A DNA stretch of 20,389 nucleotides. Origin: a virus. Location of the stretch: positions 1-20,389 of the IMG/VR virus record IMGVR_UViG_3300011115_000295; one strand, written 5' to 3'. Both the position numbers and the translations under genes were made by a program. This document shows positions 5,151-18,456 of the stretch, in pieces. The notes below the pieces were generated by a model that was given only the letters and a program-made list of their open reading frames with translations, did no database searches and had not been told where the DNA came from. Numbering within the stretch: position 1 is the first letter of the stretch; every line of letters begins with the position of its first letter.

Positions 5151-5333
5151 TTACGTTGTTCTTGTTGAAATTATATTTCCTGCTCCATCTCTAACTACTG
5201 CATTAGATTGTGAAACTAAACTTCCTATTCCTTGTTCTGATAATTCTCCATTGCAACATTTTTGCGAGTATTTACCATCTTTGCATAAGCAACCTCTTTT
5301 ACCACCTTTTGGTGAACTTGTTTTTCCTGACAT
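5151..5333 (-). CDS. Small Cys-rich phage protein (CxC...CC)
   Basis: 60 aa from the ATG at 5331-5333. A longer in-frame opening with upstream ATGs exists, but it would run through the end of the HAD-like frame. The MSGKTSSPKGGKRG start lies 10 bases after that frame's stop and has an A-rich leader (AAAATAAAATT). The core is KRGCLCKDGKYSQKCCNG, a CxC-x8-CC pattern that recurs in small proteins of Bacteroidota phages, followed by QGIGS. The four Cys could bind one metal ion, though this is inference. It sits in the head module between the protease-HAD region and the scaffold; function unknown. Confidence 0.75.
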   Translation of the reverse strand: MSGKTSSPKGGKRGCLCKDGKYSQKCCNGELSEQGIGSLVSQSNAVVRDGAGNIISTRTT

Positions 5334-5343
5334 AATTTTATTT

Positions 5344-5649
5344 TTAATCGTTAATAAATAATTTTCCAATACCTTCAAGTTGTTTAACAACATTTTCATT
5401 ATTATCATAATGTGTTTCTATTTTTAAACTTTTAATTTTAGCTATTTTATTTTCATTAGAACCTGTAGCGTAAACTCTACTTAAAGGTATTCCTAATTGA
5501 TTTGCTTTTTCTATTAAACCTTCTTTTGAATTTCTTGCAGAAATAATATATAAATCATTATTTTCTGATATTAATCTTTTTGCTATTTCTGTTCCTTTTG
5601 AAGTTGATAATGTAGAATCATAATCAAAAGAAATTTTAGCAAGGTTTAC
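5344..5649 (-). CDS. HAD-like phosphatase domain, reached by -1 frameshift from protease gene
   Basis: Reading frame GTA (5647-5649) to TAA (5344-5346) gives 101 residues starting VNLAKISFDYDSTLST. The frame contains no ATG, GTG or TTG at all, so it cannot be started normally. It shows HAD superfamily features: motif I DYDST (Asp nucleophile and second Asp), motif II IISAR, a Lys region in NKIAKIK and an acidic HYDNN at motif III. HAD enzymes hydrolyse phosphoesters using an aspartyl intermediate. The only sensible way into this frame is a -1 slip from the XkdF-like gene on A AAA AAG (5649-5655), which would give a 297-aa fusion. The alternative is a missing A in the run, making one continuous gene. 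Confidence 0.7.
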   Translation of the reverse strand, partial: VNLAKISFDYDSTLSTSKGTEIAKRLISENNDLYIISARNSKEGLIEKANQLGIPLSRVYATGSNENKIAKIKSLKIETHYDNNENVVKQLEGIGKLFIND

Positions 5650-6236
5650 TTTTTTTTTTCACCATTTAAAATGATGTCTTTAATTTTTAAAAGTAATTCT
5701 TGTTCTTTTGCTAATTGTAAACTCATTTCTAATTTGTCACTAAAATATCCTTCGATTGAAAATCCTTTAACCTTTCCTGTTTTTACAAAGTCATTCCAAA
5801 TAGCATCATTATTAACTTTCATTGATACCATCCAAGTTCCTACAGGGGCATTTAAACCATACTTTTTAGACTTATCCATTTCAGTATCTTCAACTATCCA
5901 AGATTCAACTACTGATAAATCTTTTAGTTTCTTTTCGTGTTCTAATGTTGCATTATTTTGATTACTATTCATTAAGAATAATTCACTTGCTTTACGTACT
6001 GTATCATTTGAAAAGAATATATAATATTCATCATCTCCATTTTTACGGTAAATATTTTTATTTGGTATTAATGCAGCACCCATTAAAATCTTTTTTTCAT
6101 CATCAACTTTAGCAAGTTCTAAATGTTCACTTAATGCAATAAAGTTAGATTCTATTGCAGGAAATTCAACTATTGATACTGCTTCTATTCCGTTTAACTT
6201 TTCAGTTTCGTCTATTATTAATTCAACTATTCTCAT
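5646..6236 (-). CDS. xkdF-like: XkdF-like prohead serine protease
   Basis: 196 aa in the zero frame. The order of conserved pieces fits the XkdF family of phage proteases: AALIPNKNIYRKNGDDEYY, candidate catalytic His100 in ATLEHEKKL, candidate Ser112 in VVESWIVED, then VGTWMVSMKV and the late GFSIEGYF (158-165). Such proteases are packaged in the procapsid and cleave scaffold and other head proteins during maturation. The scaffold and capsid genes lie just downstream, as expected. The C-terminal helix ends NGEKKK at a stop placed directly after an A10G run; a -1 slip there would add a HAD-like domain (see 5344-5649). The leader before the ATG has the shared AAAAAAATA block. Confidence 0.75.
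   Translation of the reverse strand: MRIVELIIDETEKLNGIEAVSIVEFPAIESNFIALSEHLELAKVDDEKKILMGAALIPNKNIYRKNGDDEYYIFFSNDTVRKASELFLMNSNQNNATLEHEKKLKDLSVVESWIVEDTEMDKSKKYGLNAPVGTWMVSMKVNNDAIWNDFVKTGKVKGFSIEGYFSDKLEMSLQLAKEQELLLKIKDIILNGEKKK
5649..5655 (-). promoter_or_regulatory. A AAA AAG slippery heptamer (-1 frameshift candidate)
   Basis: The minus strand has a run of ten A then G (5649-5659), read in the protease frame as GAA AAA AAA AAG TAA. The heptamer A AAA AAG is the same as the E. coli dnaX slippery site and is followed at once by the zero-frame stop. A -1 slip enters the HAD-like frame without loss of residues. Confidence 0.6.
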
Positions 6237-16738: not shown

Positions 16739-17287
16739 TTATTTGTTTTTATTATGTTCTATTACTTTCATATTCATATCATAGATAGCTTGTAAGCGTA
16801 GTATCATTACTTCTTGATGTTCTGTTCCTTTTGTTTCATTAAGAAGGTTGGTTAACTGTTCTATTATTTTGTATTCGTATCTTGCTTTTTCCATTTGTTT
16901 TATTCTTAAATTACTTTCTTCTAATTTAATTTGCAGTTCTGATATTTTTAAAGTTCTCTTTTTAAGTTCTAATCTTAACTGATTGTTATCTTCTGTATTT
17001 AAAATGTTTTCTTCTTCCATTTGATTTATGATTGTGTTTTTTAAATATCTTAATTCATCATTAAACTTTTCATACATAGAATAGTTGTTTAGTGAATGTA
17101 TTACAGTTGCGTGATTCTTATTTACTGAATCAGCCATTTCTTGTAATGTCATTTTAGGTTTAAAATGTTTAATTGAATGAAAATATAATGCTCTTGCTTC
17201 AATTATATTATGCTTCCTACCGATTTTACAAACATCTATATTTGTTTCTTGCTTTATTATCTGTTTTATTCTTTCTGTTATTTCCAT
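16739..17287 (-). CDS. DnaA domain IV-like DNA-binding protein with coiled coil
   Basis: 182 aa. Residues 18-70 resemble the C-terminal DNA-binding domain of DnaA: GRKHNIIEARALYFHSIKHF, then LQEMADSVNKNHATVIHSL, where NHATVIHS (58-65) lines up with the DnaA signature 'DHSTVLHA' that reads DnaA boxes. No ATPase domain is present. Residues 85-150 form a charged coiled coil (LRLELKKRTLKISELQIKLE), probably for dimerisation. Such a protein could bind DnaA-box-like sites to start, block or copy-control replication, or regulate transcription. It starts 11 bases after the ABC-GNAT gene's distal stop. The domain call is solid; the biological role is inferred. Confidence 0.75.
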   Translation of the reverse strand: MEITERIKQIIKQETNIDVCKIGRKHNIIEARALYFHSIKHFKPKMTLQEMADSVNKNHATVIHSLNNYSMYEKFNDELRYLKNTIINQMEEENILNTEDNNQLRLELKKRTLKISELQIKLEESNLRIKQMEKARYEYKIIEQLTNLLNETKGTEHQEVMILRLQAIYDMNMKVIEHNKNK

Positions 17288-17604: not shown

Positions 17605-18456
17605 CTAATATCCAATGCCTAATCCTTGAAAATCAGGAATAACAACTGTTCTTGTTCCTCTAAATGCTTTTTTTACATAACCACTTGGGAAAGGTAAAAC
17701 TGCTAAAAAAGCAACAGGTTTATCATTAAATAAAGCAATAAAACATTTACTCGATTGATTTAAATCTTGACTTAAATAATGATGTTGTTTGAATAAATTC
17801 CAAGTTTCATATCTACATCGAAATATAGAAAGTTCAATTTTTGGTTGCCGAAGTTGTGACGCTATTTCAAGACGTCCTTTAGATGGTGAATAAATCCAAT
17901 CAGGTTGCAACCATTCCATTATATCAAAGTGACAAGATGCAAGTACAATTTTTTTATTAGTTCTTCTAATATACTTTTGTAATGCATTAGACATAGCTTT
18001 AGCAACATCTCTATCTACTACAGATGTATATTCATCAATTAATATTACTTCATTTTCTTTTGCACTTCCTACAATATAAGCAAGATTTGCTCTGTATTGT
18101 TCACCATTAGATAAAGTATTGAATGGTCGTAACCAAGTTGGAACAGAACTTAAACCCATAGCAGATAATAAAAATGTAGCATCTTTAGGTTCTAACCAAT
18201 CAAAGTTACTTATTAAAGATTTAGAATTATCAAAATATGATTTATCCATTTCTTTTTTAAAGTAGTTTTTTAATATAGTAGTTTTGCCTGTTCCACTACC
18301 ACCATAAACTACACCTATATTCCAATCTTTAGGTAAATTTTCTAAATTAGCTTCAACAATTACATTTGATTCTGATTTGTTTTGTATATCAAATGCTTCA
18401 TAAATATATTCTGTATATTTATCATTGTTTATTTTATGAGTTAAATTTATTTTCAT
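17605..18456 (-). CDS. Phage ABC ATPase-GNAT fusion, interrupted by amber stop
   Basis: 283 aa up to TAG; 384 aa plus the TAG position if read through to 17299. ABC ATPase part: Walker A GGSGTGKT (52-59), signature LSNGEQ (115-120), Walker B VILIDE (137-142), D-loop SVVD and H-loop His176 in SCHFD. From about residue 205 a GNAT acyltransferase begins: FRCRYETWNLFKQHHYLSQD, PVAFLAVLPFP and the acetyl-CoA loop RTVVIPDFQGLGIG (269-282). The TAG falls 2 codons after that loop, removing the rest of the fold. The family is widespread in phages of many hosts; its substrate is unknown to me. It overlaps the upstream 38-aa ORF by 23 bases. Confidence 0.8.
   Translation of the reverse strand: MKINLTHKINNDKYTEYIYEAFDIQNKSESNVIVEANLENLPKDWNIGVVYGGSGTGKTTILKNYFKKEMDKSYFDNSKSLISNFDWLEPKDATFLLSAMGLSSVPTWLRPFNTLSNGEQYRANLAYIVGSAKENEVILIDEYTSVVDRDVAKAMSNALQKYIRRTNKKIVLASCHFDIMEWLQPDWIYSPSKGRLEIASQLRQPKIELSIFRCRYETWNLFKQHHYLSQDLNQSSKCFIALFNDKPVAFLAVLPFPSGYVKKAFRGTRTVVIPDFQGLGIGY

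Follow-up and report, generated by a model that had tools for sequence, protein, structure and literature searches.

The prohead protease gene and the open frame behind it

The window, by which we mean the whole stretch of DNA analysed here, is a 20.4-kb viral fragment from IMG/VR with 28% G+C, whose minus strand carries a cluster of head and tail genes. Within the head gene cluster, together with the portal, scaffold and major capsid genes, lies an ORF at positions 6236..5646 that is a predicted prohead protease of the XkdF type (Peptidase_S78_2), with a zero-frame product of 196 aa. It matches the XkdF family of Pfam (PF14550) over residues 40–164 (E=1e-15, 58.2 bits against a cutoff of 24), as well as phrog_24921 (E=1e-52) and families of head maturation proteases, and its relatives share the head operon. 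A small Cys-rich gene (MSGKTSSPKGGKRGCLCKDGKYS...; 5151..5333, minus strand) is a fixed neighbour in the relatives. Since it directly follows the protease gene in those relatives that lack the HAD domain described below, this domain represents a module placed between the two genes. The phages carrying this junction probably infect Bacteroidota, as the nearest cultured protease is that of Nonlabens phage P12024L (50% identity) and one of the relatives (L222) is a contig from a Bacteroidetes MAG; all relatives compared are metagenome contigs.

Two other minus-strand genes of the window deserve mention. An ATPase-GNAT gene (17605-18456) is interrupted by an in-frame TAG at 17607-17605, beyond which the frame stays open for ~76 more codons, and a relative with 70% identity (L060) reads through at this place; the interrupted gene may be a pseudogene, an error or a case of readthrough. 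A small protein encoded at 16739-17287 has a match to the DnaA C-terminal-type HTH domain (PF08299, E 1.6e-6) just below the curated cutoff.

The zero frame of the protease ends with the codons GGT GAA AAA AAA AAG TAA, that is, on an A10G run (5649..5659, minus strand) with the TAA stop directly 3' of it (5646..5648); in the relatives, the zero-frame stop lies 0–3 codons beyond the run. The -1 frame (5344..5658, stop codon at 5346-5344) encodes a HAD domain and is startless, with no ATG, GTG or TTG across its 104 codons, 101 of which come after the AAA AAA of the run. Upstream, this frame is closed by a TGA at 5661-5659, inside the GGTGAAAA stretch, so that the overlap of the two frames is restricted to TGAAAAAAAAAAGTAA. 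Because the TGA closes the -1 frame upstream and the frame opens within the A-run, the run is the only place to change frame. An earlier reading of this locus as a protease ending on A10G-TAA with a startless HAD domain in the -1 frame is thus borne out by the window sequence, where the zero and -1 frames overlap at a slippery sequence, as expected of a recoding site.

In the genes of the window, the A10 alone reaches eight A's in mRNA sense, against 5.95 runs of at least this length expected from synonymous-codon shuffling (one run or fewer in about 0.2% of shuffles), indicating that this phage avoids long A-runs outside the junction. Likewise, in every contig examined with the HAD domain in a shifted frame, the junction is the sole run of A9 or more.

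The -1 frame encodes a small HAD domain

All four HAD motifs (DxDx[T/S/V]; S/T; K; acidic cluster) were found in the -1-frame segment. Alignment places motif I, with the nucleophile and the acid/base aspartates, at DYDST (5611..5625), motif II at ISAR of the IISAR stretch (5533..5544), the motif III lysine at K70 (5446..5448) and motif IV at HYDNN (5398..5412), all on the minus strand. Among 27 relatives, down to about 38% identity, residues D11, D13, A40, R41, K70, D84, N85 and N86 are invariant, whereas position 39 of motif II is either S or T. An AF2 model of the segment reached a pLDDT of 95.5 and matched KDO8P phosphatase with a Foldseek E of 4e-4. VIA Z scores for this model were 9.9-11.5, including 11.5 for phosphoserine phosphatase and 10.4 for T4 PNKP (polynucleotide kinase 3'-phosphatase). 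Universal stress proteins match the model with similar scores, and the HAD call therefore rests on the motifs and the fold together. By contrast, linker and HAD came out poorly in the AF2 model of a natural in-frame fusion (L072; mean pLDDT 67.7, few rows), and an alignment mixing rows of fusions, proteases alone and HAD alone was left out, as its domains were misaligned.

Based on its motifs and modelled fold, the -1 frame is predicted to encode a complete small domain with phosphatase or nucleotidase activity. It shares the Rossmannoid core and motifs I-IV with the HAD phosphatases (KDO8P phosphatase, phosphoserine phosphatase, T4 PNKP and the nucleotidase phrog_8630) but is about 100 aa long, capless and 14-25% identical to them. 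None of the curated HAD profiles of Pfam or NCBIfam matched the window segment above cutoff. A match to the nucleotidase family phrog_8630 (E=4e-6) and matches of PF06189 (5'-nucleotidase) to three of the 27 relatives (best E 7e-8) hint at a nucleotidase. Weak Pfam matches of the segment to Diphthami_syn_2 and ADH_zinc_N were taken as chance. The same HAD domain (TM 0.93, 56% identity) is present in BFVD entries from uncultured Caudovirales phages named 'Phage-like element PBSX protein, XkdF' (for example A0A6J7WUA4), where, unlike in the window, it lies in frame within one polypeptide annotated only as XkdF.

Three arrangements of HAD behind the protease

A search of IMG/VR with the HAD segment yielded 67 loci, and the alignment was extended to more than 500. 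Behind the XkdF protease, HAD was found in three arrangements, namely in a startless -1 frame, with its own ATG, or in one open frame with the protease. The first comprises the window and ten contigs (L002-L010, L268). All eleven, which come from different metagenomes with proteases diverging to 54% identity, have A10 followed by a HAD frame that is in -1 and startless, although they were found without requiring A10. A DNA pattern that needed only at least eight A's near the HAD start again placed every shifted HAD behind A10, and none behind A9 or A11. In the second arrangement, ten relatives (L012, L013, L074-L078, L080, L100, L222) start HAD at an ATG that overlaps the protease stop (ATGAAAATTAG or TAATG) and have no A-run. 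In the third, protease and HAD form a single ORF of 321 codons in L072 and 417 codons in L079, the homologs in one frame with XkdF that the original prediction had proposed looking for. Together with the eleven contigs of the first arrangement, these fusions strongly support its reading of the locus as a protease-HAD fusion by a -1 shift at the A-run.

Among 88 protease ends that have no HAD or an own-ATG HAD, the longest A-run is A7 (none reach A8), and even no-HAD proteases that share up to 97% identity with the query lack the run (L142-L144, L146-L148; the 97% case is L142). The KKK[VI]xLAK leader preceding HAD is conserved and is read in frame in L072 and in a portal fusion (L019). Within the shifted HAD frame, dN/dS is mostly 0.05-0.3, reaching 0.53 against L010, which shows purifying selection. 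The zero-frame stops differ among the HAD frameshift contigs (TAA, TTC AAT TAG, TAG), indicating that the frame break is old. In the HAD tree, the frameshift state occurs on two supported branches, with L010 grouping with the in-frame L079 (95/81) and the others with the in-frame L072 (99/93). The L010 protease is 93% identical to that of the window, though its HAD lies in another branch, which indicates that HAD has been exchanged while A10 and the -1 frame were kept. Altogether, the comparison shows that selection has maintained the A10 together with the -1 frame and the lack of a start codon.

Other domains behind the run and the in-frame mirror image

We further scanned for the protease motif EGYF (GAA-coded only) followed at 68-98 nt by at least nine A's. 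In eleven further contigs, representing four junction lineages, the protease ends 2-3 codons past an A10, and the -1 frame enters a different, helical domain that begins with ESYxDYPxxxxxNAKxA (the "SYTDYP domain"). The codon phase of the run varies between lineages (GAA AAA AAA AAG; TTC AAA AAA AAA AGT; TTA AAA AAA AAA GCA; ACT AAA AAA AAA AGA). By run length, a domain in a shifted frame was found 22 times behind A10, three times behind A9 and never behind A8, A11 or A12, counts that are samples drawn from GAA-coded EGYF patterns. Neither HAD nor SYTDYP was found in a shifted frame behind exactly A8, or behind A7 among the matches listed. The three A9 ends have SYTDYP out of frame (+1 in L340, -1 in L353 and L358), and L353 resembles an in-frame A10 junction minus one A. 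The site and its frame relation are conserved in the eleven HAD and eleven other-domain contigs, with dN/dS of the HAD frame indicating selection, as expected of a recoding site.

Another 45 contigs with A9-A12 read the extension in frame with the protease. In 37 of these, a -1 stop occurs no more than two codons from the run. Counted by distinct contexts, the -1 stop lies within two codons in 16/22, against 0.255 expected (p=5e-6, a value that is too optimistic, as the contexts are related by descent and this relatedness is ignored), and a +1 stop lies within four codons in 19/22, against 0.40 expected. The in-frame A6-A8 controls show no excess (-1 stop 3/9, +1 stop 5/9). The -1 stops arise from different residue pairs (ATT GAT, ACT AAT, ATT AGT, GTT GAA, GTT AAA). 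Such early shifted-frame stops are the trace that would be expected of a two-product site. Comparison across these contigs suggests that the A-run is a general element of the XkdF protease family, where the slip site is kept and the attached domain swapped, and that either arrangement would give two products, the protease alone and the protease with a domain.

More broadly, the protease C-terminus appears as a hub for accessory domains, among them SYTDYP, HxH/WYMPC (PF12518, DUF3721) and DUF5824 (PF19141), in varying combinations (extended XkdF ORFs in L150, L162-L172, L177, L193, L204, L217 and others). In the public annotation of the Rhizobium phages MN988558.1 and MN988459.1, a 'DNA methyltransferase/prohead protease protein' matches the XkdF family, representing another enzyme on the same protease.

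Distribution of the HAD domain among head genes

In a census of 151 HAD reading frames, 57 are located upstream of terL, 26 are N-terminal inserts in XkdF, 20 directly follow XkdF in another frame, two are C-terminal in frame with XkdF, four are in the portal and three are with the HK97-type protease (39 unplaced). Counting in-frame HAD on head proteins, there are 28 contigs with XkdF, four with the portal and three with the HK97-type protease. A phosphatase on a head protease, described in the original prediction as unusual, is thus one instance of a recurrent association of HAD with head proteins. These are putative effector domains on head proteins of terminase-portal phages, and in the window the domain would get there through recoding only. 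Portal HAD domains are inserted or appended (L019:1081-3159, L272, L136:2633-4921, L056), and the L019 and L272 portal junctions have a run of A10 or A9 ahead of the in-frame HAD. HAD just upstream of terS/terL (L014, L017, L024-L055 and others) usually stands behind a small 'PxPxxGExxxxFxxRCMSD' N-terminal segment.

Each of 20 whole HAD-positive contigs contains exactly one copy, as does the window, and some HAD-less phages of the protease clade have no HAD anywhere in contigs of 30-37 kb. Hence, judging by gene content, HAD is a single-copy, dispensable module tied to the head and packaging genes.

Proposed mechanism and alternative explanations

We consider it likely that the A10 is a slip site yielding the protease alone and a minority protease-HAD product that would carry HAD into the head. 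Under this scenario, much protease of 196 aa and a minority fusion of about 297 aa would be made from one gene, through RNA-polymerase slippage on the A-run, ribosomal -1 frameshifting on A_AAA_AA(A/G), or both. The fusion product is very probably made in the HAD frameshift phages, given that selection has kept the run, its frame relation and the sequence of HAD. It would bring a limited dose of the predicted capless phosphatase or nucleotidase into the procapsid, since the protease works inside the procapsid. There, HAD could act on nucleotides, DNA ends or phosphoproteins, or be ejected with the DNA into the host. Its position leads us to propose an accessory activity within the head or close to it, because HAD is dispensable and, in phages related to these, is found on the portal, on other proteases and beside the terminase. 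The own-ATG HAD genes of ten relatives suggest that fusion would not be needed for HAD function.

A homopolymer of nine A or T lets RNA polymerase slip efficiently in vivo (PMC5009743), and A10 reaches this length of about nine or more. The original prediction had pointed to the dnaX heptamer, and a purely ribosomal shift of the dnaX type on A_AAA_AAG, with no part for the polymerase, is a reasonable possibility that falls short of an even chance. A_AAA_AAG, the most shift-prone heptamer in E. coli, above A_AAA_AAA (PMC5009743), is indeed in frame in the window and in 9/10 HAD relatives, and nearly all frameshift junctions have a G directly after the run. However, the heptamer is out of frame in three other-domain lineages and in L010, where A10 is still kept, so that what the lineages share is the A10; and seven A's would suffice for the ribosome, yet shifted domains are lacking behind A8, and behind A7 among the matches listed. 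Nor was a conserved stem-loop or Shine-Dalgarno stimulator found at the junction. A 3' RNA structure is the usual stimulator of ribosomal -1 frameshifting, although it is not strictly required. Downstream of the run, RNAalifold found no conserved structure (-0.27 kcal/mol, with a compensatory change at a single pair), and folding better than in shuffled sequences was limited to the window (z -2.6) and, weakly, L006. As the lineages share a run length rather than one heptamer, with no shifted domain below A9 among the matches listed and no conserved RNA structure, the comparison slightly favours RNA-polymerase slippage, and both routes may contribute. Transcriptional slippage appears at least as likely as ribosomal frameshifting; in weighing the routes, we would give slightly over half to the polymerase, about a third to the ribosome and about a tenth to others.

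The remaining explanations dispense with a slip during expression. HAD might be made as a separate protein, from a non-AUG start (ATT/ATA) or by re-initiation after the protease stop, and the ten relatives with an ATG overlapping that stop make coupling a real alternative. We nevertheless regard it as unlikely for the window, as the frameshift group lacks ATG, GTG and TTG but has the A10, the ATG group lacks the run, and the KKK[VI]xLAK leader is conserved and translated in frame elsewhere. The original prediction had counted a relative with a normally started, unfused HAD against the fusion; such relatives exist, but because they lack the run, they represent an alternative arrangement, and the reading for the window stands. 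About equally improbable is phase variation, with replication slippage altering the run length so that the fusion would be on in some phage particles and off in others. Homopolymers do vary by replication slippage in bacteria (PMC3711429), and near-identical junctions occur in frame (L312, A10) and out of frame (L353, A9). Still, phase variation predicts A9 and A11, while the HAD frameshift group has no run-length variation, all eleven contigs having A10, and its frame break is fixed by differing zero-frame stops; we consider this explanation disfavoured. The same two observations lead us to reject a sequencing or assembly error or a one-base deletion, which would make the real gene a permanent in-frame fusion with 11 A's. 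Such fusions exist in L072 and L079, and other in-frame junctions have A9-A12, but among the HAD frameshift contigs, with protease identities of 54-93%, A11 occurs in none, leaving the loss of one A, also considered in the original prediction, very improbable. Finally, HAD might be a decaying remnant and the shift a fixed mutation, in keeping with its dispensability and its absence from several close relatives. The low dN/dS and the intact active site, with all catalytic residues kept in the frameshift group, lead us to reject a pseudogene, and we give decay hardly any credence. The two-product slip site on A10 thus remains the preferred reading.

Comparison with known systems

Promiscuous Ig-like domains are added to virion proteins of tailed phages by programmed frameshifting, as in T3, A2 and Listeria phages (PMC5009743). 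They likewise occur on various virion proteins, in frame or shifted near the gene end, with two products. What sets the present case apart is a head protease as the carrier, with an enzyme (HAD) or a small helical domain added at a poly-A run. With its HAD Rossmannoid fold, the domain works like the Ig-like additions without being one itself.

In dnaX, slippage is ribosomal in E. coli and transcriptional in Thermus. The XkdF junctions resemble dnaX in that an A-run within one gene would give two products with a common N-terminus. Two dnaX orientations are known, one in which the extension is in frame and the shifted frame soon stops, and one with these roles exchanged (PMC5009743), and the shifted-domain and in-frame-domain junctions mirror each other like these two forms. 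In contrast to dnaX, the gene here encodes the head protease of a phage, the extension can be exchanged from phage to phage, and no conserved stimulator was found.

Small enzyme domains on head proteins of terminase-portal phages have been proposed to be packaged and injected (Iyer 2017 PMC5512222; PMC9503650), and Nudix domains fused to MuF, portal and a capsid-processing serine peptidase have been described (PMC9503650). Like these polyvalent or head-effector proteins, the present phages have a small enzyme domain on the portal, protease or another head protein; the passages searched in PMC5512222 and PMC9503650 mention neither HAD on a head protease nor a dose controlled by slippage. The baculovirus 38K protein is a HAD phosphatase required for nucleocapsid assembly that dephosphorylates a core protein on which genome packaging depends (PMC5899202), although it belongs to an unrelated virus and is not fused to a protease, making it a functional analogy only. 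A substrate in the capsid, as for 38K, or delivery to the host, as for Nudix, would each fit the HAD domain.

Frameshifted Ig-like additions to virion proteins and effector fusions on head proteins are thus already known. Tailed phages use slippage for tail chaperones and Ig-like decorations, and here it appears to serve in the same way to attach enzymes to the protease that matures the head and works inside the procapsid. In the literature covered, from which subscription journals were mostly absent, we found no report of HAD on an XkdF protease or of slippage there, of an enzyme put on a head protease by slippage, or of an A10 site that persists through changes of domain and frame. As a tentative wider model, a tuned A10 might serve as a general dosing device in AT-rich phages, in which polymerase slippage would set a fixed ratio of plain to cargo-bearing protease, the cargo would enter the procapsid and reach the host, and cargo and frame would be swapped while the site is kept. 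If the two-product reading is true, it would offer phages a simple route to dose cargo into heads, and would allow a concrete test of the delivery of head-borne enzymes into the host, and the in-frame, shifted, separate-ATG and absent states would form a clean natural series for the origin and flipping of recoding sites.
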